Positions 84-25,389 of a stretch of 64,000 nt of DNA are shown here, piece after piece. The stretch lies in contig NZ_JASF01000005.1 of the NCBI RefSeq assembly GCF_000622405.1, positions 930,001 to 994,000 on the forward strand. Reading direction: 5' to 3'. Position numbers and translations under genes: made by a program. Source of the DNA: Sulfitobacter donghicola DSW-25 = KCTC 12864 = JCM 14565. Its GTDB lineage: Bacteria; Pseudomonadota; Alphaproteobacteria; Rhodobacterales; Rhodobacteraceae. How positions within the stretch are numbered: position 1 is the first letter of the stretch; each line of letters opens with the position of its first letter. The notes below the pieces were generated by a model. The model did not search any database. It was not told where the DNA came from and saw only the letters and a program-made list of their open reading frames with translations.

Positions 84-1058
84 TCAGCTTACCCGCTTTC
101 GCGTCTTGGAACGGCGCTTCACGACCAGCTCATCATCCTCATCAGCATCCGGTTTGAGAAGCCAGAACTGCTCTGCATAGAAGACGTTCTTTTGCGCGGT
201 ACAGCCCTCCTGCATGCCCCAAGCGCGTGCGAAGTGATCAATCGTAAGGTCGGCATCATCCGCAACAAGAGCCATCTCAATAGCATGCACAATAAGTTCA
301 ACGGCGCGACCGAAACGGTACCTGGCCCCATGAAACAGGCGCGCAATAAGATCGGCCTCAACTGGCGCGCCACGCCCTGCCCGGTCGCAATAATAAGTCA
401 AGATGTCCTTGAACAGTTCACCGTCGACTTCCTCCGACAACGTCGGCAGGATGATGGTCGAGAACCGGCGCTGGACCTGAGGGTCCGTCCGAATAATCTT
501 GCCGAGATCCTCCGTCCCGGAAAGAACGACAACAAGCGCGTCATCGCCCTGCATCAATGACTTGAGGGCGCGCAAGATCATGCCACGGTCAGCGCAGAAG
601 AGATCATGTGCTTCGTCGATCCAAAGTACAGCGGTTCCCATCAGGCGCAGGCGTTCCTGCAAGAGCTCCCAGAGTGCCCATGCCTCTTTGCGTTTTGAAG
701 CCTCGACGTATCCAGTCTTCTGCAGCAGCGCGAGCGTCATACTCTTGAATGTCGCAGGGCTGGGCACCGAACATTTGATGTATCGCGGCTGACCGTACTC
801 GCCCTCGGCCAAAACCGGTTGCTTGGCCAATGCACGATCCACAAGGTGCGATTTCCCGCTGCCAGGGCCACCGATCATCAGGACACCCCGGGTCTCCCCA
901 GTTTTTGTGACACGGAGAGGTTCAGGCATCAAATTGCCCAGTTCGTCCCGCTGCAGCAGCCGTTCGAGATGCTCTGTGATCTCGGCGTCACGCTCAGAAG
1001 CAATGTGGAAATTTCGTACTGTTTCGAGAGTACGGGCGATGGTTGCGTGGTCAGTCAT
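84..1058 (-). CDS. tnsC: TnsC/TniB-type AAA+ transposition regulator
   Basis: This AAA+ ATPase of about 324 residues should link target selector and transposase in a Tn7/Tn5053-like element. Visible motifs are Walker A GGPGSGKS near residues 63-70, Walker B LWIDEAHD near 145-152, a sensor-1-like SGTEDL near 180, and a QRRF arginine motif near 196-199. The length suits TniB/short TnsC rather than the longer Tn7 TnsC. I chose the ATG at 1058; it has GGAAG eight bases upstream, and an in-frame TTG lies two codons earlier. The start follows the tnsB stop within the string TGATCATG, so translation is probably coupled. The C-terminus is basic (KRRSKTRKR), perhaps a contact for TniQ or DNA. The family call is firm; partner contacts are inferred. 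Confidence 0.9.
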   Translation of the reverse strand: MTDHATIARTLETVRNFHIASERDAEITEHLERLLQRDELGNLMPEPLRVTKTGETRGVLMIGGPGSGKSHLVDRALAKQPVLAEGEYGQPRYIKCSVPSPATFKSMTLALLQKTGYVEASKRKEAWALWELLQERLRLMGTAVLWIDEAHDLFCADRGMILRALKSLMQGDDALVVVLSGTEDLGKIIRTDPQVQRRFSTIILPTLSEEVDGELFKDILTYYCDRAGRGAPVEADLIARLFHGARYRFGRAVELIVHAIEMALVADDADLTIDHFARAWGMQEGCTAQKNVFYAEQFWLLKPDADEDDELVVKRRSKTRKRVS

Positions 1059-1060
1059 GA

Positions 1061-3238
1061 TCAATCTTCCTCAACTTTGAGAGACGGTGATGTCGTCGCG
1101 GATGCGACCTTGGGTGCAGGGGCGTTCTGGGTGGCATCAGTGCGTGATGAAGGGCCAGCTGCTGGATCGGCAGACTGTGCATCAATGGCATCGGGGAGTT
1201 CACGTCCGACTTTGCCGGCGGTCTGCTTCGGGGCCTTGCGCTCAAAGAACTCAACACCTGCGATTACCCGGGCTTCGGCGCGGTCCGCAGCATCGCCAGA
1301 CCAGTCCTCAAGATTAAGGCTGGCGGCGGACATTGCCTTGGCATTTCGTGATGCAATCGCTTTGATCGCCTCACGGACGGCAACCATGTCCACACGGTTC
1401 GAAGCTGGGCTTGCTGCACGTACATGACGTACTGCGGTCAACCACGTCTGCGCAGCTACCCCTTCGAGGGATGGATCTACCGCAGGGATTTCAAACCAGT
1501 CCGGCCCCATCTTCACCGAAATTGCTCCGATGTCTTTCGGATGCCAACGGACATCCACTTTGTGCGGGTCCTTGCGACGCATCCAGGTCGCCAAAGCTTC
1601 AGATTGGTACCGCACGCCGAGAACGGTGATCCCCGTTTTCTCAAGGTTGTATTTCTGGCGCTGGCCAAAAACGAGCCGCGAATGATACATGTCCGGTGGG
1701 CTCTGAACGCCATACTTCTTGCTCAGACGGCGCCAGCACTCGATTGGTGTTTCTCCATCAAGGCTCCGGTGTGGCGTATTGTGATAGATATCAACAACCC
1801 AGCGAATGAAGGCGAAAGTGACGTCCTCCAGCTTCATTGCAGCCCGCTTCTCAGGGTCTGCATCCCCTTTTTCACGAATGTTGGAAAACGTTCGTCCCGG
1901 CATGCGTGCCGCCAAATCCGTAGCCATCGTCCCGAAGACCCGTTCAATCATTCCGCGAAGCTCTGGCGTGCCGTTGATTGCGATTTCAGCCGCAATGCCA
2001 AGGTCGGCACAGGCAAAACGGAAGCGCTCAGACTTAAAAGCAAGGCCACCATCGGTCACCAGAAGCTCTGGTGTACCATGCATGTCCCAAGAGCTCAGAG
2101 AGCCGGTAGCATCCGCCCAGAGACCCTTGTTCGACACCACCATCTGCAATGCTTGTACTGCAGCCTCTCCTCCTGGATTACGGCTCAGTACCATCGCCAG
2201 AATGCATCGAGATGTGCAGCAAATTACGGCTGTCAGCGTCCATCGAGTCTTCGAGCCATCCAAACCGAGGGATTTCTTCTCCTCTTCGGTAAGAAGCCCG
2301 TAAATCTCAGCGCTCTCCATGATGGAGATGGCATCAACCGTCCACTCATCCATCTCAACCCGCTGAAGCAGCCGCGTCAGTTCCAGTCCATTAATAACCG
2401 GACGAAACTTCTTACGAGCTGCCGCCTCACCATTTCGGGCAATTTCGACGGTAAAAGGGTCAAGGTTCCGAATTGCGCGGCGCACCGTTTCATAGCTCGG
2501 AGCTGTAAGCGGCTCCCGACCTTCGGCAACCCGTTCCTCGTTCCGATCATGAAATGCGATCAGAACATTCTCATGGGTCAACTTAATCGACGGCTTTTCA
2601 AGTGACAAATACCCGCGCACTTCTTTCATCATCAGCCCATAAGCCTCTGGCGACATAAGCTTGGTCCGGTTGCCGCGCCGTGCCATGCCGTCAATAAGCC
2701 CAGGCAACCCAAATTCAGCCTTCGCCGACAACCATCGGCGCAGGGTTCGAGGACTTGGCAACTTTGTGAAGTCTACAGATTGGTCAATTTGGTTGGAGCC
2801 GAAGCGGTTCAGGTTCTCGACATAATCGAGCGCCATCCCGCGGATCAGTTTCAAATTAACTTTGATACTTTCATCTGTCCGGTTGACCTTCCGGTCGCGC
2901 TCAAGCTCTAAAAACCCTTCGCAAAATGCATCTTTCTTGGAGACACGGGCATGCGGTCTGCCGTCGAGCCCAGAAATTAAAGTGGTGCTTCCGCGAAGCC
3001 GCCGCTTGGCCTCATCAGGAAGGAAGAAGTTACGCTCAACATGAATTCGACCGAGCCCACCAAGACGGCTGAGCTGATCATGACTGAAGGAACGCGACAA
3101 GCCTCGGCTGTCATCCAGTGTCATGACGTAGCCCTCCTCGTTGCGGGGACCTACAGTCCAAGGTGAGCCTTCAATGTGAACACGGTCGTATTTACCGAAG
3201 GCGTAGTTTGCGTTTTCGTTGCGAAATGAGAGATCCAT
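1061..3238 (-). CDS. tnsB: TnsB-like DDE transposase (Mu/Tn7 integrase family)
   Basis: This 725-residue strand-transfer transposase is the expected length for TnsB. An N-terminal DNA-binding region with a helix-turn-helix-like stretch (LPSPRTLRRWLSAK, near residue 160) precedes an RNase H-fold catalytic core. The likely triad is D297 (MDEWTVD), D396 (LLVTDGG) and E432 (GMIERVF), giving a D,D-35-E spacing. A beta-barrel/Mu C-terminal region follows, and the last roughly 100 residues are low-complexity and Ala/Pro/Ser-rich, where TnsB proteins contact TnsC. The ATG at 3238 has AAAGGA upstream. Upstream is a shortened paralogue of the same family; downstream tnsC is coupled. The catalytic residues look intact, so this is probably the active transposase. 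Confidence 0.92.
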   Translation of the reverse strand: MDLSFRNENANYAFGKYDRVHIEGSPWTVGPRNEEGYVMTLDDSRGLSRSFSHDQLSRLGGLGRIHVERNFFLPDEAKRRLRGSTTLISGLDGRPHARVSKKDAFCEGFLELERDRKVNRTDESIKVNLKLIRGMALDYVENLNRFGSNQIDQSVDFTKLPSPRTLRRWLSAKAEFGLPGLIDGMARRGNRTKLMSPEAYGLMMKEVRGYLSLEKPSIKLTHENVLIAFHDRNEERVAEGREPLTAPSYETVRRAIRNLDPFTVEIARNGEAAARKKFRPVINGLELTRLLQRVEMDEWTVDAISIMESAEIYGLLTEEEKKSLGLDGSKTRWTLTAVICCTSRCILAMVLSRNPGGEAAVQALQMVVSNKGLWADATGSLSSWDMHGTPELLVTDGGLAFKSERFRFACADLGIAAEIAINGTPELRGMIERVFGTMATDLAARMPGRTFSNIREKGDADPEKRAAMKLEDVTFAFIRWVVDIYHNTPHRSLDGETPIECWRRLSKKYGVQSPPDMYHSRLVFGQRQKYNLEKTGITVLGVRYQSEALATWMRRKDPHKVDVRWHPKDIGAISVKMGPDWFEIPAVDPSLEGVAAQTWLTAVRHVRAASPASNRVDMVAVREAIKAIASRNAKAMSAASLNLEDWSGDAADRAEARVIAGVEFFERKAPKQTAGKVGRELPDAIDAQSADPAAGPSSRTDATQNAPAPKVASATTSPSLKVEED

Positions 3239-5664: not shown

Positions 5665-7431
5665 ATGCAGTCTACAGAGATACCTTCGGAGGTTGATATT
5701 CACAGCTATGAAGGTCTAACTCGCTTGTTCCGATTTGGCGTTAACCTCCGGAACAACGAAGCTGATCGCGCTGCTCTTGCGCTAACGGAAGGACGCTTCG
5801 GTCTACCTGCCTACATTCCAAAAGCACGTGGCGCTCTCGAAGATACGGCCAGGCACCTCGATCATCTCGGAAGCGAAGCAAAGTTCGAAAAAGTGTGCGC
5901 ACTGATTGCAACGGCAAGCACCAAAATGAATACGCTGACTGATGATCTATGCCGTGAACTATCCATACTCACTGCTTCGCAAGACATCGTCAGGTTTTCT
6001 TTTGCTCCTGCGATCTTGCCCTGCCTCTTACACGCCAAGGCTGCCAAGGCGAGCCGAAGGGTAACATACCCGATGTACGCGATAAGATACGCTGGTATCG
6101 GCCCAGACGTCCATTTAATGGCCTTTGCATCGCTGTTTTTGAACCTTCCGATATATACTGAGAAGAATCCCCCGTGGGATCCTGACACAATTTTCGACGA
6201 CGGTGTGCCAAATACAGAATTGCCAGACATTGAAATCACATTCCCACCTGCAGAATTTCGATTGCAGGATAAGCTGGACCTGGAGGAGAGTGTACGAAAG
6301 TCGAAACTACCACGAGTTGTCGATCGCGGAAAACTTGATCTTGAAAGCACTATGATCGACTACCTATGTGCGGCACACAGGTATGCGTTTGCATTCGTCT
6401 CAGAAAGTTTCGCCTCGTCCACCAAACAATCGCGCTTGAAAGCCCGTCAAAACCTTCTGAAGGAAATGCGTGTTCGTCGTGTGGCAGAGTTAACGACAAC
6501 AATGCCGCCAATGATAATGATAGAATTCGGCCGACCCGGTGAATCCGTCGAAACCGTCAAGATAGTGTCTACTGATGATGTCGAGAACTTCTGCGAGGCG
6601 GGATTTCTTGTTCGAGAGCGTCCTGGTAAATCAGGACTCGTTTCCATCGAAGAAATACAGATCTCTGGCGATAATCTGGCTCCAAAACGATATCTCGCAA
6701 AAGGGCCTGCTGGGGGGCGCAGTATTGCGGACGCATTTGCAAACATCCGGAAACCTCTAAAATACAGGCTCGCAGATCTTTTTGAGGTCATCAGGCCTAA
6801 AACAACAAAAAGCAATCCTACCGGTGAGGAGGAAATTAACGAACTACGCCCGAGCGACATCCATGAAAGCGGTGATCTTTCCGGAACATTCCGGAAAATC
6901 GCTCTGCGGGACACTGTCACAATCGGATTACAGGAACAGAGGATTAAGGCTGGCGATCTGTTATTCGCGCACCGCGGCCCCGTCGGCCGTGTTGGATACG
7001 TGACAAAACAGAACATTCAAAATAAACACTTATGGGCAGCTCAGTCTCTACTGATTATTCGACCCCGAAAACAAAAATCTGGACGGGGTCCGCGCCCACA
7101 CTGTGATCCTCGCGTCCTATTTATGTACCTTTTGTCGCCAAAAGTTCGCAACCACTGGGTCGAGCTTGCCATTGGTGATCGCAGTCCTTCCATACCGATA
7201 GGTGAGGTTGAGAGGTTCGGCTTACCAGAAAACCTGATACTACAAACAAAGCCCAAAAAGGCAGACCCCTCTCAAAAAGAAGCCCGACTCGAAAGCCATA
7301 TTGATGTGATCATAGCTGAATTTGAAGCGCGTCAGAGACACATGGCAAGTATTCAAGAACTTGAAAAGAAGATTACTTCAGGAATCAATCATGTTTGGGA
7401 AACCGCTTGGGCAAAATCGCTTGAGAAGTAG
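5665..7431 (+). CDS. Solitary type I specificity-subunit-like DNA-recognition protein
   Basis: In this 588-residue protein, roughly residues 362-520 look like one target recognition domain of a type I HsdS subunit. Features are a start RLADLFEVIRPKTT, a short ELRPSDIHESGDLS segment, then AGDLLFAHRGPVGRVGYV, and an SPSIPIGEVERFGLP motif. It ends in a helical segment (about 525-585) like the HsdS spacer helix. The N-terminal 360 residues are not recognised. No HsdM, HsdR or other methylase/nuclease gene is near, so it is not a complete restriction system. It could lend specificity to an HsdMR set elsewhere, act alone as a DNA-binding protein, or be a BREX-like or novel adaptor. The start has GGGAG seven bases upstream of the ATG. 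Upstream are two inverted repeats that may control it. Confidence 0.6.
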   Translation: MQSTEIPSEVDIHSYEGLTRLFRFGVNLRNNEADRAALALTEGRFGLPAYIPKARGALEDTARHLDHLGSEAKFEKVCALIATASTKMNTLTDDLCRELSILTASQDIVRFSFAPAILPCLLHAKAAKASRRVTYPMYAIRYAGIGPDVHLMAFASLFLNLPIYTEKNPPWDPDTIFDDGVPNTELPDIEITFPPAEFRLQDKLDLEESVRKSKLPRVVDRGKLDLESTMIDYLCAAHRYAFAFVSESFASSTKQSRLKARQNLLKEMRVRRVAELTTTMPPMIMIEFGRPGESVETVKIVSTDDVENFCEAGFLVRERPGKSGLVSIEEIQISGDNLAPKRYLAKGPAGGRSIADAFANIRKPLKYRLADLFEVIRPKTTKSNPTGEEEINELRPSDIHESGDLSGTFRKIALRDTVTIGLQEQRIKAGDLLFAHRGPVGRVGYVTKQNIQNKHLWAAQSLLIIRPRKQKSGRGPRPHCDPRVLFMYLLSPKVRNHWVELAIGDRSPSIPIGEVERFGLPENLILQTKPKKADPSQKEARLESHIDVIIAEFEARQRHMASIQELEKKITSGINHVWETAWAKSLEK

Positions 7432-12072: not shown

Positions 12073-13839
12073 TTATGGGCCTTCTTTACCATATAAACGG
12101 GCATCAATTACTGCCTGTAGTACATCCGCAATTCCATGCCCATGGAGATGGATACCTATCTCGTCGAGCGGCTTATCTTCGGAGGCAGTCTGAGAACCCC
12201 AATTGAAACTTGTGACGACAATGTCGTCACGGTCCCATAGGAGAGCCTTCCCGTGCAGCATAGAATCTCGGCTCTGCACTTTCCGGATGTCGATACCTTG
12301 ATTGCTCTGTTCAACTGCGGCGCGGATGTCGCGCTTTTTAACTTGGCCAGAAGGCACCGAATAAAGTGCCTGAACGCTTGCGATACGCTCTGACGCCACC
12401 TGAGCTGGATCAAAAATATTTTGAACCATTGACGACCCCATCCTGTGGGTCATCACTACGAAGCGTTCGAGAGAATCATGCGCAGCGCGCCGCAGCAAAG
12501 GCAAATGGTCTGTCGCGGCCAGTATTCGAAGCGTTACCTCGATTTCCTCAGCCTTACGCGGCATCTCTATGAGACAAGCGCGCTTTAATAGTAACTCAGC
12601 CCGCATAGCCTGCATCGAGTCCCGAGATTCACGCGCCGTTGGAACCCCTGCGGTGATGGCTCCCAATAACTCGAGGCAGCCCGCGACGGCGGGCCCATCT
12701 TGCAACTCAACTGATAGTTCGTGAGCGCGAAACGGTGATTGCAGCCAGTTGCATGATCCCAGCAGCGCACGGGCACCACCTGCCCCGTCATCGGCCATCA
12801 GAATCTTCGCGTGACTATGTACTGGGGCAAGATGGGCAGCAACAGACGCACCAGCGGTACGCAACCGGCCTTGGAGCTCGGCCATCGCCCGCATATGCTT
12901 ACCGTCTTCGTCCAGCGAAGAGCCGAAGAATAGATGGACTCGTACCCCGCGGCGAACGGCACGTTCAAATGCCGACCAAACGCGTTCTTGCCTCAAATGG
13001 GCTTTTGGATCGTCCTGCGCGGCCACGAAAGTCGAGAGTACAAAAATGTCGCTCCGCGCGGCGTCCACGACCGCTTCCAAGCAAGTGAGGTGATCGTTAC
13101 CTCCAAAAATAATCTGTTCCGGCGATAATTTGGTTTCAATTGGCGTGTCAAGGCACACCGGCCGTGATGGCTGAGCAGGCTGCGCTACCGGAAGTTTACC
13201 AGATTGAAAATGATCGCGCAGTGAAACGCGTAATGCCTCACTTGCCCCTTCAGGCAGGACACCATCTTTTGCTCGGTCAAAGTCAATCTCAATAAACCGT
13301 TTTTCGATAATTGAGCGGTTGGCTTGAACCATGGCAAATACCTCACCTGCTCGTAAGTCCGAGCTTACAAGATGGCGGACACGGCTCTCCATTGACGCAT
13401 CTGTTTCAATCTCGTCGTCTCCTGGGAAGTCGACGATCTTTGTACCCTTTCGGCGATGCTTCGGTGTTTTAAAGACTACATCGCGTTTGCGGAACACCGA
13501 GCCACCCAATTTGTCGAAGACGAGGCTGACAATCATCTCACGCCGCTGAGCGCGCTCTGGCAGTGATCGACCAGCAACCAAATGGGCACGAGCAGCTTCG
13601 GAGATCGCAAGGGCCGGCACAGGCGCAATGCGAACTTCGATTAACCCAAAGCGCATAAGCCGGCTTACCGCCGCCTCTACAACTTGATGCGCAATGCCAA
13701 GTTCTTTCGCCACAGATGCGCTTGTTCCAGGATTCTCTCTTAGAACGAGGAGAATCTCCTCCTCCACCGGGCTCCAACCCCATCGCCGCTCGATGACTAC
13801 GCGTGCACGATACCATACCACCGGAATCAAGAAGCTCAT
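12073..13839 (-). CDS. PLD-family nuclease-like protein with N-terminal winged helix
   Basis: This 588-residue protein has two HxK motifs of the phospholipase D superfamily: HSHAKILMAD near residue 341, followed by LLGSCNW, and LHGKALLWD near 533, followed by VVTSFNW. Together they form one bilobed active site, as in PLD-type nucleases such as the DISARM component DrmC. The first 80 residues contain a winged-helix-like segment (EEEILLVLRENPGTSASVAKE) suited to DNA binding. The ATG at 13839 overlaps the stop of the upstream helicase gene (TGATG) and has AAGGA before it, so the two are translationally coupled. A soluble nuclease acting with the helicase is the simplest reading; lipid hydrolysis is unlikely without a membrane signal. 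Confidence 0.8.
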   Translation of the reverse strand: MSFLIPVVWYRARVVIERRWGWSPVEEEILLVLRENPGTSASVAKELGIAHQVVEAAVSRLMRFGLIEVRIAPVPALAISEAARAHLVAGRSLPERAQRREMIVSLVFDKLGGSVFRKRDVVFKTPKHRRKGTKIVDFPGDDEIETDASMESRVRHLVSSDLRAGEVFAMVQANRSIIEKRFIEIDFDRAKDGVLPEGASEALRVSLRDHFQSGKLPVAQPAQPSRPVCLDTPIETKLSPEQIIFGGNDHLTCLEAVVDAARSDIFVLSTFVAAQDDPKAHLRQERVWSAFERAVRRGVRVHLFFGSSLDEDGKHMRAMAELQGRLRTAGASVAAHLAPVHSHAKILMADDGAGGARALLGSCNWLQSPFRAHELSVELQDGPAVAGCLELLGAITAGVPTARESRDSMQAMRAELLLKRACLIEMPRKAEEIEVTLRILAATDHLPLLRRAAHDSLERFVVMTHRMGSSMVQNIFDPAQVASERIASVQALYSVPSGQVKKRDIRAAVEQSNQGIDIRKVQSRDSMLHGKALLWDRDDIVVTSFNWGSQTASEDKPLDEIGIHLHGHGIADVLQAVIDARLYGKEGP

Positions 13840-16800
13840 CAGATTATCCTTCCATCTTCGCCGCAAACGACAATCGAAGCTTGCGGTAAGACATCTGGAA
13901 CTTTGGGCTCTGCCATCCTGTCAATCCGCCGCAGCATCCCCCCCAGAAATCCGAGATCGCTACCGGACTCTTGCTCATTCTCTGACCATTGGATCGCATT
14001 CCACAGAAATCCTGTCGAGGTGACGAGAACAAGCTTGTGTCGTGCGCGGCTCAGAAGCACATTCATTCGCCGGCGGTCTCCAAGAATGCCAAGCGCGTGG
14101 CGTCCGACCTTTTGATTATTCCGCACAGTGCTCACAATCACAACGTCGGCCTCGCCGCCCTGAAAGCTGTCAATTGTGTGAACAAACAATCCGTCGCCTT
14201 TCGGGCTGGCGAAGCCACCCAGCAATCCAGTGTGTTGGTCTGTGCGGGTCGCTACAAGAGACCTCAGGAGATTGCACTGCGCTGTATAGGGCGATAGAAT
14301 CGCAAGAGTCGGCATTTCTCCTGAGGCTGGGCCCAATATATCAAGTGCCTCAAGTACAGCAGTAGTCTCTGCCCTATTTGCTGGTGAAGTGCCTTCGAAC
14401 GTCTCAAAAGCCTCAATGCGCGATCGGCTGAGCGAAGGTAAGTCAAATATTACCAACGGGGCAGCAAGCGCCCCAGTGCTTGGAATTATCGGACAGGCAC
14501 GATTAACAATGCGCTCTGCCGTCGTCAGTCGTCCACCATAGAAAGTCTCAGAAACCAATTCGCAAATAGTCGGGTGCATCCGGCTTTGTTCAGTGAGCAT
14601 TGAGACTGGCCCGCTACGCACATTGTTTGAAGCCTCTTCCGCTGTTTCTGCGATTTCTCTAAACGGTTGCTCAAGCCGAAGAGCCGCTCCGAGTACGTCC
14701 AGGCGAAGACTGCTGTTGTCTGCCAACGCAGCAAGCGAAGCACCGACCGCCTCGGGCAGATCCGATACCGCAGCGATAATATCTACCGCGTCCTCAAGTA
14801 ACGCCTCGGCGGCGCCCGCAGAATAAAGCCGTGCCTTACGTTCGGCATCGAACGGAGCCAGTTGGCGATGATCTCCAATCAATACGCGCCGGCTACCCAA
14901 AGACAATGGCCCGATAAGCTCCGGACCACTGGCCCTTGCGGCTTCCTCCACGATCACCCAATCGAATTGCTGACTCTGCGCAGCCATCTCCTCGAGCACA
15001 GACGAGTTCGCTGTCGCTAAAGTTACGTCAGCGCTGCGCAGAATTAGATGTTCCGTGTCCCGCAGAATAGCCTCACCTTCAGAGTCAACAGCTTCATCGG
15101 ATTCTTGTACTCGAAGGAGCCGCTCAATAGCTTTACGTCGGACACGGGAGAGTGGGCTTGTCTGACTTAAAACGAAGGTATCCAGAAGGGACCGCGCACG
15201 TGCTTTTAAGCGAGTTTCCCCCGAGTTCTTTTCAGGGCGTTCCATGCGGACGACGATTGCGTCATTCCCCAGCTCAGTAAAATGCTTTCGTAGTGTGCGC
15301 TCCATTTCCGCAAGCGCCTCATGGTTCTGTGCGGCAATAAGGATACGAGCGGTTGGTCGATCTTTCAAAATACTGCCGATAAGCCTCGATATAAGGAAAG
15401 ACTTTCCCACACCCGGAGGACCAACAACGAGATTGAGGGCATGCCCGTGACAGATTATATCCCACGCTGATGATTTTGACGGATCCAATTCGGTGGGTGC
15501 GGCACCCGGAGGGGCCATAGCACGGATTGCAGGGTCCAAACCGACACTGCGTGGGTCGCCAATAGCACGAAGTAGATCAAAGTTATCGCGGGAATTGACT
15601 ATGTGGTTAAGACGGCGGCGGACCTGCGTTTCAGTCCCTTTGTCCGGACGTGGACGTAGCAGAACGTGCCCCTCAATTGGTATTCTTCCTTCATGTCGGA
15701 AAACATAAAGCCTTCGTCCATCTGCATCGACGACATCTTCAAGCGAGAGTTTTGGTGCAGAAGGCCCCAGCGTCAGCGCACCAGACGCTGTGAGCGTCCA
15801 CTCCACCGAACCGTCATCGCGCAGCATCTCGCGTTGAAGGTCAGCGGCCGCCTCATTGCGTCCGAACTTTGCACGCCAATGATCCCGCTCCGCGTCAGTT
15901 CGCGCCGCGACACGAACGAGGCCGGTTTCAGGAGTATCGACAATTTCGACAGGATAATGGTGCAGTCGTCCCTCAAGGAGGGTTGCAACCTCAATCAAGA
16001 CCAGCGCATGCCATTCGACGAGATCGCGATCACTCGCCTGTACTGCAGGATCTTTCCCGACGGAAGCCCACGCGATGGCTCCTCCCCCAGTCCGCGCAGC
16101 TCGATCCTGTGCATGGTTAATGTTTTGCGAGACGTGCATTCGAGCAGTAATCGGCAACGCATTCAGTGCACCATCGCCTGCACCCCGCATCCGACAGCTT
16201 ACAATCCGGCCAAAACGATCATCGTTCGTCATCGGGCGTACACTATAAACGGCGCGTTGGGTGAACACTGATATCATCCCATCGCCGCGGTAAGAGTCGC
16301 GCCAAGCGATTGGGGTATCCCCCGTCAAATCGTCTTGAACAAAAGAGAGTAGCGCTTCCCTATCAGTCGCTGGAATTAACCCTTGCGTCAGCACAGGTAC
16401 GTCACGCCGCAAAAGATCACGCCCCGGCAGAACGATCAATTCGTGCCGTCCACTTGACCCCACCAACTCAAGTTCTGAGCACAAAGCCTCAATCTCTGTT
16501 GCCAAGGCCTCGCCTTCGACATGCACGAACTGAGGTGGCACACGAAGGCGGTCAAGCAAGCGCTGCTCTGCTGGCAGAAGCACTGCGCTTTCTGTATCAT
16601 TTTGTAAGAGCAGACCCGCAGCAACTTTTCCAAGGTCCCGCCAGTCTTGACCGTAAGAAACAACAGAACCGGGGCTCAGTAAGGCCGCACCACCGCTACC
16701 AACGGAACCGAGATGAACGCAGCCCTCGTAGCCACCGAGCTTCAGTTCTAGAGGTTCAAGGCAAGATGTGAAAACCGTGCTTTCTGCTATGCCGCCGTGA

Positions 16801-17264
16801 ACGATGTCTGCCCCGTGGAGATAACCCACACCCCGCGCAAGTCGTGCTATTTGATACCAAATAGCGACACGTCCAGAAACCGTTCGTGCGCTCTCCTCGA
16901 TTTTGCGGCGACTTCGAGCAGACAAAGCGTCAAGCGATCCGTCAGCGCCTATTAAACGAATTCCGATCTCGTGATCGTCTTCAATAACATCTATCACATC
17001 CAGCAAAATTTCATGCACCGCCTTGCGAGCCAGAACCCCGCGTACGCGCCGCACCGTATCATTCAGAAAGCGCGCAATATCTTGATCGACCGCCGCACCA
17101 GTCTTTTTGATCAGCCATAGTATATAGGTTTCACCGTCATCCCGATCGGTAACCACCCAATGGCTCGAAGTCCGCAAATAGCGTTCGCTACTGCGTCCGC
17201 CCTCCATTTCGAACCGATCGTCGAGTGGGGTCTTTGCGTTCCCAATTCGCTGTTTTTGACGCAC
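13839..17264 (-). CDS. Pseudokinase fused to a UPF1-like SF1 helicase
   Basis: In this 1141-residue protein, residues 30-260 resemble a protein kinase (ILWLIKK lysine, then GVGYLHGADIVHGG in place of HRD, and LGGYEG in place of DFG). The catalytic Asp residues are gone, so it is a pseudokinase. After a middle region comes an SF1B helicase: Walker A VVGPPGVGKS near 615, Walker B VIVEEAARA near 771, GDHRQLAPF, EQSRMHP, DSFQGGEADVVIVS near 1036, and MNVLLSRAR. The start is a GTG at 17264; no better ATG exists upstream. It is coupled to the PLD gene. The pair resembles helicase-nuclease defence modules, but I cannot match it to a named system. The pseudokinase might sense an alarm nucleotide or a phage protein. 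Confidence 0.8.
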   Translation of the reverse strand: MRQKQRIGNAKTPLDDRFEMEGGRSSERYLRTSSHWVVTDRDDGETYILWLIKKTGAAVDQDIARFLNDTVRRVRGVLARKAVHEILLDVIDVIEDDHEIGIRLIGADGSLDALSARSRRKIEESARTVSGRVAIWYQIARLARGVGYLHGADIVHGGIAESTVFTSCLEPLELKLGGYEGCVHLGSVGSGGAALLSPGSVVSYGQDWRDLGKVAAGLLLQNDTESAVLLPAEQRLLDRLRVPPQFVHVEGEALATEIEALCSELELVGSSGRHELIVLPGRDLLRRDVPVLTQGLIPATDREALLSFVQDDLTGDTPIAWRDSYRGDGMISVFTQRAVYSVRPMTNDDRFGRIVSCRMRGAGDGALNALPITARMHVSQNINHAQDRAARTGGGAIAWASVGKDPAVQASDRDLVEWHALVLIEVATLLEGRLHHYPVEIVDTPETGLVRVAARTDAERDHWRAKFGRNEAAADLQREMLRDDGSVEWTLTASGALTLGPSAPKLSLEDVVDADGRRLYVFRHEGRIPIEGHVLLRPRPDKGTETQVRRRLNHIVNSRDNFDLLRAIGDPRSVGLDPAIRAMAPPGAAPTELDPSKSSAWDIICHGHALNLVVGPPGVGKSFLISRLIGSILKDRPTARILIAAQNHEALAEMERTLRKHFTELGNDAIVVRMERPEKNSGETRLKARARSLLDTFVLSQTSPLSRVRRKAIERLLRVQESDEAVDSEGEAILRDTEHLILRSADVTLATANSSVLEEMAAQSQQFDWVIVEEAARASGPELIGPLSLGSRRVLIGDHRQLAPFDAERKARLYSAGAAEALLEDAVDIIAAVSDLPEAVGASLAALADNSSLRLDVLGAALRLEQPFREIAETAEEASNNVRSGPVSMLTEQSRMHPTICELVSETFYGGRLTTAERIVNRACPIIPSTGALAAPLVIFDLPSLSRSRIEAFETFEGTSPANRAETTAVLEALDILGPASGEMPTLAILSPYTAQCNLLRSLVATRTDQHTGLLGGFASPKGDGLFVHTIDSFQGGEADVVIVSTVRNNQKVGRHALGILGDRRRMNVLLSRARHKLVLVTSTGFLWNAIQWSENEQESGSDLGFLGGMLRRIDRMAEPKVPDVLPQASIVVCGEDGRII

Positions 17265-17490: not shown

Positions 17491-20400
17491 ATGTTCAAAT
17501 CAATGAGTAAAAATTTTCATATACTTCGCAGCTTGCAATCAAGCGAACGCGTTGTCGCAGAGAGTGAGCTTCTTCTGGAGCCCGGCGTAGTTATCGTTTT
17601 GGCTGAACCAGGGGCAGGAAAAACAGCTTTACTGGCGAATTTCGCTCGCAGGTTTGATACCAAAGCCACCAAAGCGAGCTGTTATTTTGAACCGAGCGCA
17701 TCATCTTGCCAAATAGTCGATGCTTTTGATGAAGTAGCTCGACTTGGAGCTCAAGATATTGGCCAAATACTATCGAAAATCCGTGCAACCGGAGCAGATC
17801 GAATTGTTCTTTCCAGCCGCTCTGGAGAATGGGAGAAATCTCAAACTCAGTTGGTCAAAGATGTGTTTGATATCGAGCCGGTAGTCGTCCAGCTTTTACC
17901 GCTTACTGAGCATGAACGACGTCAACTTTTCGCGCACGAACTACCCGATGAGAATTTCGACGACTTCATAGTGCAGGTTCAGCGCTTTGACCTTGGACTC
18001 TTGTTGGGAAATCCAGAGTTCCTCAAGTTGTTTGCTGCCGCCTACATTGAAAGTGGTAGACTCTTTAAATCGAGGAAAGCGGTGTTCGATGATGCGATCA
18101 AACATCTTGCTCACGAAGCAAACGAGGCAATATCGCAAAGAGGAGCCCCTACGAGAAATCAAAGGGTTGCTTGGGCAGAAGAAGTCTTCGCCAAGGTCTT
18201 ACTTTCAGGCGCGGTGGGGGTTTCCATCGCGGGAAGATTGCAGGACGATACGTTCCCCAACTTAGGAGATTTGGGTATAGATAGCATTCAATTGCCGTCA
18301 ATACTGGACACCAAACTCTTCAAGCCAGCAACCGGTGAAGGCTTACATGAACCTATACATAGGATAGTTGCCGAATATGGTGCAGCCAGATATTTGATCC
18401 GGCTGGTTGATGATGCCGGCCATATCTTTTCGATGCGACAGTGCTTGTCAGTTATTGCTCCAAATGGGACCACACGCGATGAACTCCGAGGTTTGCTGGG
18501 GTGGATGGCCGCATTGGGGTCACAGTCGGTACAAAATGCTGCAATAGAAGTCGATCCTTACGCCGTTCTCGGTAACGGCGATCCATCCATGCTGTCAGAA
18601 AATTCCAAGCTATATCTTCTGAAAGAATTACAGAAGCTTCAAGTACACGACCCACACTTTCGCAGGAGTGACCGATGGCGCAATTTCAGCGCTGCAGGCT
18701 TTTTCACTCCGTCAGTCATTCAAGCCGTCAGACCAATTCTACTGAAACAAAACGATGATGATGAACTTCGTATGCTGTTGCTAGAGCTGCTTGAAGGATC
18801 ACCCGCAAATGCGGAGCTGGTCCCTGAATTACAAGAATTGATATTTAATGAAGAAGTGCCAAAGCAGGTTAGAACTCGGGCGCAAATGCAATTGGGCAGT
18901 GTCACAACACACAATCACAAGCCTGACTTTGATCGCTTGGTTAAATCTGGAACTCCAGATGCACTTGAGCTTGCGGCAGAGATATGTGTCGACGCAGGTG
19001 TTGAGAATTTTGAAGCTGATCAACTGGCCTTACTGCTCAGAGCCAATGCACAAACAGTGCCTCGTGACTTCGATCGATTGTATGCTCTTAAGAAAGTTAC
19101 CCAAAGCTTAAACTTGGAGGCTACCGAACGTCTTCTGAATGAACTTACGGATAAACTCTCCTGTACCTGCAAAGCCAAAGACGCCCACGATTGCCATTGT
19201 CGGGACAGTATCAGTAAGACCGTGGGATCTCTACTGGACAGGTTTTTCACACTTGCAGCAGATACTGCTGATCCAGCGAAGGTGTGGGGTTGGATAAAAA
19301 ACCTGAACTTTCATAATCAAGCCCGTTCCAAGGATAGCGCCGCAGTTCGAGCATTGCAGGAAAATAACTGTCTTCGCCAACAAATCCAACAATCTGCATT
19401 TGCAAACGTGACGGATGAAGATGAAATATGGAAAATTTACTCAAATACCTTTGGATGGCAGGGGCACTCTGGTCTTGGGTTTCAGATGGCTGATGAACTC
19501 GCGATGGTCGAGATCGCTTTTGAAACCAACAACCTCAATCTTTGGTGCAGGTTTCTATCCGGCCACCGCTATTACAATAAACCCGAAAATCGAGGCCCCA
19601 ACCCTTTGCGGCATGTGATGCGACTTCATGCCAATGCAAATCCTGAGTTTATGACCTCTTGGGTGCAACGCAACAAAATAGCGAAGAGGCAATGGCAAGA
19701 GGGGCGGTACCGTAGAGGACGATTTGATAGCCGACGCACAAGGCGAGATCGACGAATAGCGAAGCGCAACGAGCGATCCCTGCGCGAAGACAAAGAACAG
19801 ATCGAAGCGGGAGAGTGTTGGAGGTGGCTGAGCTTTATGGCTTCTCTTTACTTATCAGCACCAGAAAGACTGAGTGAAGAGTTTGGCGGAAAGGTTGATG
19901 TCGAAAAATCATTGCTCAGCAGCTTTACTGGCCAAGCGGCTGACATCCCTTCCTTGGATCAACTGGGTCAGGGAGCCCAACATCGCTCAGTGCAAATCCT
20001 TCATGCGGCTTGCTTGTTACAATTCCGAATTTCAAATGACCTCTCAGCGATTGACCAAAAAATTCTGAAAGCAGTGAAGTTAGATATTGGAGGGTATAAA
20101 AACCTCCAGAAAACAGAGGTGGTAAGTTTCGAGGCAGAAGTAGACCGTTGCCTGTTTTGCAAGGTTGAACGCGAACAGTATCTCCGAGATTTGATCGAAC
20201 CTCAGTTGAACCAAAACCGGTTTATTGATTTGAGTTGGCTGGATCGAAAGGTTGAATTTCAGGCGTTTAGATCGACTTTACCTACGGAATGGTTGGCTCT
20301 GCATCCAACACTATCCTACCAAGTCTTAGATAAGCTGTTTGATATGGCCGCTATGTATGGAGATCGGGACACGTTAACGGGCTTGATCCGCAAGAATTGT

Positions 20401-21450
20401 AACATCCTTTTTCGACAGATTGGGCCTTTTACGAAAGTGGATCCGAGAGCATTTTGGTTTTTGCGATACTTCTATTTTGTTGACGATACCAAGCCTGAAA
20501 TTTGGAATTGGCTGACAGCCGATCCGAATAACATATTTGCTCTGCAGCAACACGCTGGTCGCAAGCGCCATGGCGAAGAAACGGGTTGGCCTGACCTGAC
20601 AGCTCGTAAAATTCAATTTGTCTTGCAGTCGTTTATAGGCTCTTGGCCAGAAGTACATCTACCAAGTAGTCACGGTACAGGAAGCCCAAAAACAGAAACT
20701 GCTTATAGATACCTGACCGAAGTCATCTGGACGATCGGCAGAGACCAGCCGGAACGTGCCCTTCCTGTTCTCGATGATCTTCGAAAAGATTCCCGGTTTA
20801 AAACACTGGATTCAACATTGAGAACCATCAGAGCTACTGTGCTGCGGACAAATGCACATCAGGATTGGGCTCCACCAAAACCTGGGGGGATTGTTGCGTT
20901 ACTGGAGCATGCCGAGATCGCCAGTGTTGAGCACATGAGAACTTTGATCCTTGAAAATCTGGAGGAATTACAGGCCGAAATTCGCGGGAGTGATCTTGAT
21001 CTTTTGGACATCTTTTACTCGGGCGACGACCATCTAATGGAAAACGCATCAACCAAGCGCATCGTGACACTTTTAAGGCCGAAGCTCCAGTCCTTGAACA
21101 TTTCGGATGTAATTGAGCATCAGATGAAGGATGCCAAGCGTTGTGATTTCACGGCCTCAAAGATGGTAGACGGCAGCCGACAAATGTTGGTAGTCGAGGT
21201 TAAAGGCCAGTGGAACCCAGAACTGTACACAGCTGCGAGCGCCCAGCTCTTCGATCGTTATGCAATTCACCAAGATGCCGGGCAACAAGGAATCTATTTG
21301 GTGCTATGGTTTGGTCCAAATGGAACGATTGCTGGGCGTAAAGATCCAGCAGTTATCTCTGCTGCTGATCTCTACGAGAAAATCAAAGAATCTGTGCCCC
21401 ATGACCTCCGCGGTCAAATTGACGTTTTCGTGCTGGATCTCGCGCGATAA
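17491..21450 (+). CDS. Large STAND/NACHT-like NTPase with C-terminal PD-(D/E)XK nuclease domain
   Basis: This 1319-residue protein has an N-terminal P-loop (VIVLAEPGAGKTALL near residue 35), an Asp-containing VDAFDEV and an SSRSGEW sensor-like motif, consistent with a NACHT/STAND ATPase. A long helical, solenoid-like region (about 350-1180) follows. It contains a CxC/CxC cluster (CTCKAKDAHDCHC) near 555 and an Arg-rich stretch (RRGRFDSRRTRRDRR) near 750. The C-terminal 110 residues read CDFTA, LVVEVKGQWNPELY, then YLVLWFG, a restriction-endonuclease-like fold often seen at the end of bacterial NACHT proteins. Avs proteins carry this effector at the N-terminus instead. It is probably an anti-phage sensor-effector in one chain. 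The start is ATG 17491; ATG 17503 is also possible. Confidence 0.75.
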   Translation: MFKSMSKNFHILRSLQSSERVVAESELLLEPGVVIVLAEPGAGKTALLANFARRFDTKATKASCYFEPSASSCQIVDAFDEVARLGAQDIGQILSKIRATGADRIVLSSRSGEWEKSQTQLVKDVFDIEPVVVQLLPLTEHERRQLFAHELPDENFDDFIVQVQRFDLGLLLGNPEFLKLFAAAYIESGRLFKSRKAVFDDAIKHLAHEANEAISQRGAPTRNQRVAWAEEVFAKVLLSGAVGVSIAGRLQDDTFPNLGDLGIDSIQLPSILDTKLFKPATGEGLHEPIHRIVAEYGAARYLIRLVDDAGHIFSMRQCLSVIAPNGTTRDELRGLLGWMAALGSQSVQNAAIEVDPYAVLGNGDPSMLSENSKLYLLKELQKLQVHDPHFRRSDRWRNFSAAGFFTPSVIQAVRPILLKQNDDDELRMLLLELLEGSPANAELVPELQELIFNEEVPKQVRTRAQMQLGSVTTHNHKPDFDRLVKSGTPDALELAAEICVDAGVENFEADQLALLLRANAQTVPRDFDRLYALKKVTQSLNLEATERLLNELTDKLSCTCKAKDAHDCHCRDSISKTVGSLLDRFFTLAADTADPAKVWGWIKNLNFHNQARSKDSAAVRALQENNCLRQQIQQSAFANVTDEDEIWKIYSNTFGWQGHSGLGFQMADELAMVEIAFETNNLNLWCRFLSGHRYYNKPENRGPNPLRHVMRLHANANPEFMTSWVQRNKIAKRQWQEGRYRRGRFDSRRTRRDRRIAKRNERSLREDKEQIEAGECWRWLSFMASLYLSAPERLSEEFGGKVDVEKSLLSSFTGQAADIPSLDQLGQGAQHRSVQILHAACLLQFRISNDLSAIDQKILKAVKLDIGGYKNLQKTEVVSFEAEVDRCLFCKVEREQYLRDLIEPQLNQNRFIDLSWLDRKVEFQAFRSTLPTEWLALHPTLSYQVLDKLFDMAAMYGDRDTLTGLIRKNCNILFRQIGPFTKVDPRAFWFLRYFYFVDDTKPEIWNWLTADPNNIFALQQHAGRKRHGEETGWPDLTARKIQFVLQSFIGSWPEVHLPSSHGTGSPKTETAYRYLTEVIWTIGRDQPERALPVLDDLRKDSRFKTLDSTLRTIRATVLRTNAHQDWAPPKPGGIVALLEHAEIASVEHMRTLILENLEELQAEIRGSDLDLLDIFYSGDDHLMENASTKRIVTLLRPKLQSLNISDVIEHQMKDAKRCDFTASKMVDGSRQMLVVEVKGQWNPELYTAASAQLFDRYAIHQDAGQQGIYLVLWFGPNGTIAGRKDPAVISAADLYEKIKESVPHDLRGQIDVFVLDLAR

Positions 21451-21673: not shown

Positions 21674-23698
21674 TCAGTCAACTGTCAGCGCAGATTCTAT
21701 GATGATCTTCAAGTCTTCGGCAACGACGAACCCCTCTGGAATCGCAAACTCATCAAGTAGCCTGTCGTTCTCACCAGCAGTTTTAACGATTTGCTTCAGT
21801 GCCTTGTGCAGTTTTTTTCCTTTCACCGTTGTGGGTGACTTTCCACCAGCAGCATCCCAAAGACCAACTGCGTCTGGAGAGCCGCCATCCGGCCAAAGTG
21901 CATAAACTATCTTTTTTCGTTTCTCAAGAAAGTGATCTCGGGCTTTTCCAATCGTAGCTGCAGCTTCGCGACGCCATTCTTCAGCATCCGCCTCGCTCAC
22001 CTTGTATAAGGCGGCCAGGTATTTCGCTGAACAAAAATACCCCTCAAGGTCAGAACCTGCCGTAACCCAAGGATATACACCTTCAGTTGAAAAACTGTCT
22101 CGCCATTTCGCGGCTTCTTCATCAGTCATAAAATCACCATCTCGATGAATAGCAGCTTTGACTTTGAGTTCACCGTCTACAAGTAGACCCTCTAGAAATT
22201 TGTCGCGAGGTAAGTTGTCTATTCCGAAGCAACGGCATACTGATACTTGCGCTGATAGACTGGGCCATTGCCTAAGAATTGCTCTAAGGGGTCTATCATC
22301 TTCATCTTCAACAAAAAACAACACAGACTTATCCAAGCCACCCCATCCGAGCAACCGGCGAATTGCTTCATCGTCATCAGTTTGAACAACCCCGTCTCTC
22401 ATCCACACAAGTTTAGAAACAAGGCTTGCTGCTCTAACGATGTTGGGGCTGTGAGTTGTAAGAATAATTTGAGTTTCCAACTCTTTCGAGGCAAGCTCTA
22501 AAGCCTCAATAAGCCGCTCCTGCTTGTCCGGATGAAGGTGTGCATCTGGTTCATCGATAAGCATCAGCCTCGGTTTGAATAGAATTAGATACGCAAAAAT
22601 CTGAACAACTTGCAAAATTCCAGTCGCAGCCGTTTCCAAAGGACGAGCGTTTCCATTCTGAATGTCCGTGATGGAGGCAGAAATGTGAAAATCTTCGCGT
22701 TCATCAAACGACACGTCGATGGAAGAGTTGGGATGAACCCTCTTAATCAATCGATTAAGCGCCTTGAGCCGAATTTGTCCCTCTCCGGGGTCAGTGTCAT
22801 CACTACTATCGGTGCTCAAATTGTATAGAATATTTCTCAACACTCCTCCGGCATCCCCACTTGATGCCTGGCGACGCAACGTAGGTTGAGCCAGAATAGT
22901 TTCCCTTTCGGAAAGACCAGCCAACCCTGGTATATATGCAGTTATAAACTGGTACCGTTGCTTGTAAGGGGTAACGGCACTTCCGCCTTCCATATAGGCG
23001 GTTATCCCACCTTTGTTTCGAGCCGCACGTATTCGTACTGTGGTCTGAATCTTTTCGTCTTGGTCCGAAACATGCTTGAAGTACACTTCAACAGCATCCG
23101 ATTTCGATCCCGTTTTAAGCTCTCCATTGTGTAAAGTTTTCAAAGGATCACTCGAAGGAATGTAGTCGAGCCTCTCAAAGGATATCATTTCCTTCTGATT
23201 TTTTGGTAATACATAGCTTGCCGCTCTGGCCGCCCAGTGTATCGCCTGTAGCACCGATGATTTGCCACTTCCGTTTGGCCCGACCAAGATCGTTACATTC
23301 CCAAGCGGTATTTCGGCTTCTTTGGCCGCCTTGAAATTTCGAACGTGTATTCCGGTTAAGGGCGTCCAACGTTTCGCCCTTGTCGAGCGAGAGTCGACAA
23401 GGCGAGCACCTGAGATTTCTTCAATTGTCGTATCAATTTCAGGTTCATCGAAATCAAGTTCATCGAATGCATTCAGGCTTACTTCCCGCGTCAATACGCC
23501 ATTTAAGAGCCCGATTTGCTTCAAGATTTCAGCGTCTGATCCCTCATCAAACCTGACAAGGAAGCCGTATACTTCCCCATCATTTCCCTCAATTTCTTCT
23601 AATTCCCAAGTGACGTCATTTAAATGGTCAGGATTCACTCCCCATTCAGCTGCAATAGCGTGAATTTGGCCGTCAGCCTCGATGTCAGATTGATCCAC
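21674..23698 (-). CDS. OLD-like ABC-type ATPase with TOPRIM nuclease domain
   Basis: In this 674-residue protein, residues 1-110 form an acidic N-terminal extension. The ABC/SMC-like ATPase follows: Walker A LVGPNGSGKSS near 141, a signature-like ETAATGILQ, Walker B LMLIDEPDAH near 381, and an H-loop LTTHSP. The C-terminal part has a TOPRIM pattern: FFVEDEDDR near 464, HRDGDF near 519, and SDLEGYF. This is the OLD-family design (as in Gabija GajA). An AAA15 plus DUF4435-type fusion, as in PARIS-like systems, is an alternative. No UvrD-like GajB partner is adjacent. The start is a GTG with no strong ribosome-binding site. Nuclease defence is the likely role. Confidence 0.75.
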   Translation of the reverse strand: MDQSDIEADGQIHAIAAEWGVNPDHLNDVTWELEEIEGNDGEVYGFLVRFDEGSDAEILKQIGLLNGVLTREVSLNAFDELDFDEPEIDTTIEEISGARLVDSRSTRAKRWTPLTGIHVRNFKAAKEAEIPLGNVTILVGPNGSGKSSVLQAIHWAARAASYVLPKNQKEMISFERLDYIPSSDPLKTLHNGELKTGSKSDAVEVYFKHVSDQDEKIQTTVRIRAARNKGGITAYMEGGSAVTPYKQRYQFITAYIPGLAGLSERETILAQPTLRRQASSGDAGGVLRNILYNLSTDSSDDTDPGEGQIRLKALNRLIKRVHPNSSIDVSFDEREDFHISASITDIQNGNARPLETAATGILQVVQIFAYLILFKPRLMLIDEPDAHLHPDKQERLIEALELASKELETQIILTTHSPNIVRAASLVSKLVWMRDGVVQTDDDEAIRRLLGWGGLDKSVLFFVEDEDDRPLRAILRQWPSLSAQVSVCRCFGIDNLPRDKFLEGLLVDGELKVKAAIHRDGDFMTDEEAAKWRDSFSTEGVYPWVTAGSDLEGYFCSAKYLAALYKVSEADAEEWRREAAATIGKARDHFLEKRKKIVYALWPDGGSPDAVGLWDAAGGKSPTTVKGKKLHKALKQIVKTAGENDRLLDEFAIPEGFVVAEDLKIIIESALTVD

Positions 23699-23955: not shown

Positions 23956-25059
23956 TCAATGAAGCAAAGGCCGCGCAGTGGCAATCGCAGCCCTTTCGAT
24001 CATCCGCTTAACGGTCCTCAGGCTCGGGCCACTCATGTCTCCGTGACAAGTCCAGATGATCTCTTCGAGAGCTGTGATCACCTCATCTGGAAGTTCACTC
24101 GCCTTACCCAAGCGCTGCGCGAAACCAATCAAATGCTGCTTAGATACTTGTTGGAGTTCCAACGGCGGACAGCGGCTCAAAAGGGGCTCGGGAAGGCCAC
24201 GCAAACTATTCGCCGTCAGCACCCAACCGACCCACGAGAGATCAAATTGAACCCGGTAGTATGGGCATTGCCAAGTCTTCGCTGTCATTCTTTCCAAGAG
24301 AGGCAAAAGGCCATCGGTCAAGCTGAAACGCAGCCCTTTCTCTGAGGTCACGTCTCCCGCCTTTTCCACTTCATCAACAACAATAATCGGATTAGCACAT
24401 CTCTCTCTGATGATCGTCTCAATGACCTTACCAGGCCCGGCACTTCCCCACCCGCGCTGCGATCCAACCAGAGCAAAGCTGGCAGGCTCACCGGTAGCAT
24501 CAATGACAGTAGTCGGCACTTCAAGCAGGTTGCCCAGCCTCCGCGCCCAGTGGGATTTGCCGACACCCGGTGGGCCGAGAAGCAAAAGTGGCGCAAACTG
24601 GATGCTGGGACGGCCCTCGCGAACGGATTTCCGCATCGCGTGCCAGATGTGCTCGGTGGCAGGAGCCATCCAAGGCATCTCCTCATGCAGGGCCGCAGCA
24701 AGGACGTCGGCATCATGTTCGTTGGAAACTCTCGAGACCGTCGCACCGTTCTGTAGCCTGCGAAGGGCAGTGCGCTCCTCGGTCCTCAGGTGCTGCATCC
24801 CTGTCGCTGCTTCCTGCAGCTCAACATATCTCAAAGCGCGCCTCTCGATCTTGATCTTATCTCGAGTCGAAAGAGAGTTCGCAGAAAGTTCGAACGTTTC
24901 CGTCGGTCCATCTTCTGCAAATCTCTCAGTTTGCTCGGCGGCGCATCGCTGCTCGCGAAAGCCTCTCAGAAATCGCGAGAACCTCCGCTCAAGTTCGGCG
25001 ACCGTAGGGGTTTTGTCGAAGAAGCGAACGTTCGCGATTGGGATGTTTGATTTAAGCAT
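23956..25059 (-). CDS. Lon-like AAA+ ATPase without protease domain
   Basis: In this 367-residue protein, an N-terminal coiled, charged region (1-120) precedes an AAA+ module: Walker A LLGPPGVGKSHWARRL near 163, a Lon-like LVGSQRGWGSAGPGKV, Walker B PIIVVDEVEKA near 226, sensor-1 VLTANS, and an arginine finger region LSRCPP. A small helical lid (LRTVKRMIERA) ends the protein. Lon's catalytic Ser/Lys domain is absent, so it probably remodels or moves a partner. The ATG at 25059 has AAAGGA upstream. It is the outermost gene of the island, beside the conserved chromosome. Its function is not known. Confidence 0.7.
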   Translation of the reverse strand: MLKSNIPIANVRFFDKTPTVAELERRFSRFLRGFREQRCAAEQTERFAEDGPTETFELSANSLSTRDKIKIERRALRYVELQEAATGMQHLRTEERTALRRLQNGATVSRVSNEHDADVLAAALHEEMPWMAPATEHIWHAMRKSVREGRPSIQFAPLLLLGPPGVGKSHWARRLGNLLEVPTTVIDATGEPASFALVGSQRGWGSAGPGKVIETIIRERCANPIIVVDEVEKAGDVTSEKGLRFSLTDGLLPLLERMTAKTWQCPYYRVQFDLSWVGWVLTANSLRGLPEPLLSRCPPLELQQVSKQHLIGFAQRLGKASELPDEVITALEEIIWTCHGDMSGPSLRTVKRMIERAAIATARPLLH

Positions 25060-25306: not shown

Positions 25307-25389
25307 CATTTGATCTGGGTCGAGAGGACAAAAAAACCTACATAATGGTCATTTTATGGTGTGTCTCACAACACCCTTAGACATCCCTC

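Follow-up and report, generated by a model that had tools for sequence, protein, structure and literature searches.

A two-gene unit at positions 12073-17264 of a 64,000-nucleotide stretch of the Sulfitobacter donghicola genome (the window, by which we mean the whole stretch analysed) can be assigned with high confidence to the Mokosh type I anti-phage systems, as a member of a pseudokinase lineage that is carried by a Tn7-like transposon and would act through a gated helicase-nuclease mechanism. The upstream gene, mkoA (13839-17264, minus strand, GTG start), encodes a protein of 1141 amino acids with Pfam AAA_12 and AAA_11 matches, and the downstream gene, mkoB (12073-13839, minus strand, ATG start), encodes a protein of 588 amino acids with a probable winged helix and a PLD nuclease region. 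The initial annotation of this DNA had recognized the likeness of the pair to helicase-nuclease defence systems, which the matches to the Mokosh type I models bear out, and had gone on to propose an undescribed system. A strong match to a catalogued pair, the outcome named beforehand as counting against that proposal, was found in Mokosh type I.

Both open reading frames (ORFs) were present without internal stops, and the mkoA stop codon TGA (13841-13839) shares one base with the mkoB start codon ATG (13839-13837), giving the TGATG coupling that had been noted. A longer ORF of 597 amino acids begins at an upstream TTG; mkoB was set at 12073-13839 with 588 codons because its ATG overlaps the mkoA stop in this way. 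Full-length homologues were recovered down to 24% identity. The best 78 loci were kept from 304 relatives in a genome scan, and mkoB lay directly downstream of mkoA in all of them (71 by ORF search and 7 by tblastn; of the latter, two loci were truncated at contig ends, and in another mkoA was only partly found). Because whole-length homologues are conserved and are paired in every locus examined, a chance origin of the two frames is ruled out.

The mkoA product matched the PADLOC model for MkoA (PDLC03920) with E 4.4e-184 and 613 bits over profile positions 5-1100 of 1112, and the mkoB product matched the model for MkoB (PDLC03922) with E 3.2e-73 over positions 8-600 of 610. Other PADLOC matches were partial and weaker, namely the second MkoA model, MkoC, PDC-S37, DpdJ, mad8, and Hhe for the first protein and MkoC and DrmC (E 6.4e-12) for the second. 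On the basis of the end-to-end matches to MkoA and MkoB, the pair is Mokosh type I, and the full-length matches exclude an undescribed system; judged by its sequence, the pair is a full-length further copy of a system already catalogued. The founding paper of Mokosh is reportedly that of Millman et al. from 2022. Three features that go with type I were found here: a UPF1-type (COG1112) superfamily 1 (SF1) helicase as MkoA, a separate and adjacent PLD nuclease gene, and a domain of serine/threonine kinase (STK) fold on the helicase protein. The pseudokinase had been thought to belong to no system that could be named, but the accessible part of one source places a kinase domain beside the helicase and PLD nuclease in the description of type I Mokosh (PMC11672841). 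The catalytic STK residues are missing from MkoA, as detailed below, and the accessible part of the same source does not state these residues as defining the system; since the same catalogue model covers the whole lineage, their absence does not exclude membership.

The novelty that survives lies in the kinase domain, which by its motifs is a pseudokinase both here and across its lineage. The predicted structure of MkoA residues 9-264 (16473-17240, minus strand) is a protein kinase fold that is catalytically degenerate, although Pfam kinase models gave no match to MkoA at E 0.1. As the initial annotation had read from the motifs, the HRD and DFG aspartates are gone, being replaced by G158 and L176, and the β3 (VAIK) lysine is also gone, with W50 in its place. 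Among 75 distinct MkoA proteins of the pseudokinase branch, the HRD aspartate occurred in two (L097 and L098), the DFG aspartate in none, and the β3 lysine in 37. This set comprises the window protein, L002, 7 plasmid loci, and 66 genome loci; from the 78 genome loci we dropped L109 (mkoA partial), five with ORFs shorter than 1080 amino acids (L041, L064, L065, L068, and L116), and the duplicates L058, L060, L074, L085, and L099 (= L057) and L079 (= L002). In a set of 34 proteins, none of those with a residue at the position (30-32 rows per position) had any of the three catalytic residues. Structural positions of the kinase fold were kept in the branch, with H156 in 75 of 75, D207 in 75 of 75, and W208 in 72 of 75. 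We conclude that the kinase-fold domain is very probably unable to phosphorylate.

The loss of all three catalytic residues in the window MkoA would also be expected if the kinase domain of a former Mokosh system had rotted and the operon no longer functioned. The results speak for a conserved pseudokinase instead of decay because the same degenerate motif recurs across the 75 proteins while structural and helicase positions are kept; the frames are open, and the helicase and PLD residues are intact. We regard a decayed operon as very improbable, and it was rejected on the strength of conservation across the 75 lineage members.

The remainder of MkoA bears out the earlier description of a complete UPF1-like helicase. 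Residues 411-1141 (13842-16034, minus strand) were modeled as an SF1B helicase core of the UPF1/IGHMBP2 type with intact motifs, including Walker A GPPGVGKS (615-622), EE (773-774), GDHxQL, EQSRMH, FQGGEAD, and NVLLSRA. Residues K621, EE, GDH, Q801, Q893, R895, M896, FQG, E1038, D1040, N1068, and SR were retained in 74-75 of the 75 relatives; E892 was present in 59, and position 622 was S or T. The description of MkoB as a winged-helix PLD nuclease with two HxK motifs held for the motifs, both of which are complete. The first spans residues 343-364 (12748-12813, minus strand; SHAKILMADD..GSCN at 342-364) with H343, K345, D350, S362, and N364 invariant in 33 proteins, and the second spans residues 529-549 (12193-12255, minus strand; LHGKALLWD..SFNW at 528-547) with H529, K531, N546, and S549 invariant in the same number. 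The nearest structural neighbors of the MkoB model by Foldseek were PLD3/PLD4 and other two-motif PLDs, and several PDB titles among the neighbors mention 5′ exonuclease action or single-stranded DNA. The winged-helix part of the description fared less well: MarR_2 was matched at E 0.02 in the window protein and at E 1.4e-4 in a relative, and the model has a helical region at the N-terminus, so an N-terminal winged helix is probable but weakly supported.

A maximum-likelihood tree of 87 rows parted the 75 pseudokinase MkoA proteins from 12 kinase-type MkoA proteins by a single branch with a Shimodaira-Hasegawa approximate likelihood ratio test (SH-aLRT) value of 100. This was a quick analysis under LG+G4, rooted at the midpoint only, and it flagged long branches; for L037, only the sequence beyond residue 550 was included. 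The kinase-type proteins are few and were picked from plasmid matches to the window MkoA and to one kinase-type MkoA. An HRD or HGD aspartate was present in all 12 of these proteins and DFG or DYG in 11, the Escherichia coli protein having DIP. On PDLC03920, three members of the pseudokinase branch scored 613, 834, and 894 bits and nine kinase-type members 703-923 bits, with L120 and L141 left out of the scan; the E. coli protein reached 2170 bits on PDLC03921. All 12 kinase-type partners matched PADLOC MkoB at E 1.7e-37 or better. With one simple pattern, at least two HxK motifs were found in all 33 MkoB proteins of the pseudokinase lineage (579-624 amino acids), versus one PLD-like HxK in six of the 12 kinase-type partners (458-530 amino acids), those of Nostoc, Pseudanabaena, Arthrobacter, Oscillatoria, Streptomyces, and Anabaena. 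The other six (five from Hyphomicrobiales and that of E. coli, whose single HxK match does not resemble a PLD motif) had no PLD-looking HxK by this narrow pattern, which may miss degenerate motifs. The Hyphomicrobiales proteins thus match PADLOC MkoB yet have no HxK with the pattern, and their status as nucleases is questionable.

Five of the 12 kinase-type loci, all from Hyphomicrobiales (L119, L120, L141, L142, and L143, from Agrobacterium twice, Sinorhizobium, Microvirga, and Aminobacter), carry a third gene, for a PP2C phosphatase, that overlaps the mkoB end; no PP2C gene was annotated in the other seven, from Nostoc, Pseudanabaena, Arthrobacter, Oscillatoria, Streptomyces, Anabaena, and E. 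coli. When the five PP2C proteins were used in tblastn searches, no PP2C gene was found beside the pseudokinase loci or elsewhere outside their own five loci, a search that a divergent phosphatase would escape. That the live kinase is accompanied by a phosphatase, and the dead one by a complete two-motif nuclease, would fit a replacement of phospho-switching by noncatalytic gating, in what is a small and plasmid-derived sample. We therefore put forward, tentatively and at somewhat less than even odds, that type I Mokosh comprises two machines. The first would be run by a working kinase together with a PLD partner that is degenerate or has a single motif (joined by PP2C in Hyphomicrobiales). 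The second, in the large Pseudomonadota lineage that includes this locus, would have a conserved, non-phosphorylating pseudokinase that binds a ligand or a phage protein and in this way gates a helicase-nuclease with a complete two-HxK active site.

The same data could be taken further, to a functionally distinct defence system that shares only ancestry with kinase-type Mokosh, answers to another trigger, and deserves its own type. The SH-aLRT 100 branch, the lack of the DFG aspartate in all 75 proteins, the presence of two HxK motifs in every one of the 33 MkoB proteins against the counts given above for the 12 kinase-type partners, and the failure to find PP2C beside the pseudokinase versions would agree with such a split, but the single models PDLC03920 and PDLC03922 span both branches, the gene order is the same in both, and the tree is a quick one with long branches and a small kinase-type sample taken from plasmid matches. 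We consider a separate system unlikely.

For the Mokosh type I assignment with a gated mechanism, we infer the following course of events. The MkoA helicase would load on phage-derived single-stranded nucleic acid (RNA, RNA/DNA, or replication intermediates) and translocate, and MkoB, which is co-translationally coupled to MkoA and probably in one complex with it, would cut what MkoA exposes, as a PLD-type nuclease. The pseudokinase may be a scaffold or an allosteric gate, restraining the helicase or the nuclease until a ligand or a phage-triggered change sets it free. Gating in the sister lineage would be by phosphorylation, through a kinase that appears to be active (and has PP2C beside it in Hyphomicrobiales). 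By such steps this copy would confer defence. In the parts of the sources available, Mokosh is said to degrade foreign viral transcripts in a 2024 paper (PMC11291487), and its mechanism is given as unknown in a 2026 review (PMC12926258).

Several points weigh against the assignment and its mechanism. The window MkoA shares only ∼40% identity with the closest plasmid copies, and its 613 bits on PDLC03920 are fewer than those of 11 of the 12 other MkoA proteins scanned, only the E. coli protein being lower (435 bits). The E. coli plasmid system is itself very different, with an MkoA of 1650 amino acids that has a NERD domain and keeps HGD, and with an MkoB that gives no Pfam match. Foldseek also placed lipid PLDs close to MkoB, and both RNA and DNA are candidate substrates. 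As for the loss of phosphorylation, pseudokinases may still bind ATP or have some unusual transfer activity, according to the accessible part of PMC12599244.

The UPF1/IGHMBP2/DNA2-like helicase core would also suit housekeeping RNA or DNA metabolism, in which such a helicase works with a processing nuclease and not in defence. The distribution of the pair and its setting argue otherwise. Whole-length MkoA was found only in its own genome among 145 genomes of relatives searched (own included), and 12 of the 144 others had partial helicase matches only. A family search of 385 genomes gave matches in 281, mostly to other helicases and kinases (the control matched 13 of 14), and is not used as a frequency; among the matches listed, whole-length ones came only from its own genome and one other (G260). 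The pair is mobile-element cargo and belongs to a catalogued defence family, and some relatives have defence neighbors, adjoining CBASS genes or SIR2 and DUF262 genes, as examples from 22 plasmid regions read with no control and not as a counted association. A housekeeping role is very improbable.

The mkoAB pair is cargo of a Tn7/Tn5053-like transposon of ∼27.08 kb that reaches from -1707 to 25370 in window numbering. Its genes include TniQ just left of the window (L123:18531-19967; E 5.3e-13), TniB (84-1064, minus strand; Pfam TniB E 1.8e-18), and a TniA/TnsB-type transposase (1061-3238, minus strand; PADLOC TnsB_0_V-K E 3.2e-21; Mu-transpos_C E 6.9e-6). The left terminal inverted repeat (L123:18293-18317) falls outside the window, ∼1.7 kb to its left, and the right one (25346-25370) ends in ACA and is followed by the target duplication ACACC at 25371-25375. 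The two ends agree at 21 of 25 bases and start with TGT, a perfect 5-bp ACACC flanks both sides, and no comparable end pair was seen in 20 base shuffles. When joined, the flanks matched one congener (G418) in one piece (positions 1-357 of 369, 80%), which is the uninterrupted site, and another (G407) across the junction (118-369, 70%); the other congeners listed matched on one side only. A 13-base repeat, ATAAAATGACCAT, stands near both ends and may be a transposase site. Tn7-like transposons are known to carry defence cargo, as stated in the accessible text of PMC8649781. Among other Mokosh loci, L121 adjoins Tni genes and L037 adjoins a TnsD-family gene, again as single examples and not as a counted association.

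Other genes lie within the element. Divergent from mkoA, at 17491-21450 (plus strand), is a gene for a 1319-amino acid protein with a weak NACHT/nSTAND NTPase signal (E ∼1e-3), a C-terminal VVEVKG stretch that by eye resembles a PD-(D/E)xK nuclease, and no PADLOC match; 1097 homologues at E 1e-3 were found among 7989 candidates scored, and most of those listed had no functional name. The protein is a candidate uncharacterised defence NTPase-nuclease. An OLD/AAA_21-type ATPase of 674 amino acids (21674-23698, minus strand) and an AAA ATPase of 367 amino acids (23956-25059, minus strand) are possibly a further defence unit. At 5665-7431 (plus strand), a 588-amino acid protein weakly matched a type I restriction specificity domain (PADLOC E 2e-7; Pfam E 0.055), and no match to HsdR or HsdM was shown among the 19 window proteins scanned.

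As a system, the locus is ordinary: a transposon-borne defence pair that is already catalogued and whose mechanism is unsolved. The branch with a pseudokinase and a two-HxK nuclease is a refinement of known Mokosh, and no description of it, or of the Mokosh kinase as a pseudokinase, was found in the literature searched on Mokosh and bacterial pseudokinases, a body of text in which subscription papers were mostly missing. The sister lineages, with a working or a conserved dead kinase and with different nucleases, make the role of the kinase in Mokosh testable: if the pseudokinase version protects equally, phosphorylation would not be the core mechanism and the domain would be a sensor or scaffold. 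If the two-machine reading is true, the locus would represent a Mokosh subtype of its own, in which a pseudokinase serves bacterial immunity as a sensor.

MkoA shares the helicase core fold and motifs of UPF1, IGHMBP2, DNA2, and senataxin, but it is bacterial, is fused to a kinase fold, and has a PLD nuclease as partner. The DLHK pseudokinases, in the part of PMC12599244 available, are proteobacterial, frequently occur as fusions with helicase domains of the DEAD-like or DNA2 kind, and retain the HRD aspartate and the HRDxxxxN asparagine; their Pseudomonas aeruginosa example sits in a different operon. The window MkoA has G158 and T163 at these two positions, and each of the two residues was found in only two of the 75 MkoA proteins of the branch. 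Because DLHK pseudokinases keep the HRD aspartate, the MkoA kinase domain falls outside their description.

The comparison with DISARM and Hachiman called for by the initial annotation gave a partial likeness in each case. DISARM also has a PLD-family nuclease, as reflected in the DrmC match of MkoB, but the helicase here is a UPF1-like SF1 enzyme, and the PADLOC scan of 19 window proteins showed no match to DrmA or DrmB (in the case of the protein at 21674-23698, among the best 25 of its 160 matches). Hachiman (HamAB), from what is accessible of its description, likewise combines a nuclease with a helicase that keeps it in check and is a plausible analogue, while neither MkoA nor MkoB had a PADLOC match to HamA or HamB at E 0.001. 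Mokosh type II has related helicase and PLD domains, as seen in the partial MkoC matches, but they are fused in one gene, whereas the window has two genes and a kinase-fold domain. With Mokosh type I the pair shares the same two full-length proteins, their order and overlap, the kinase-fold domain on the helicase, and the separate PLD nuclease gene; the E. coli plasmid version is longer (1650 amino acids with NERD; 2170 bits on PDLC03921), and what sets the window pair apart from the 12 kinase-type examples is the loss of the kinase residues together with the two HxK motifs in MkoB.

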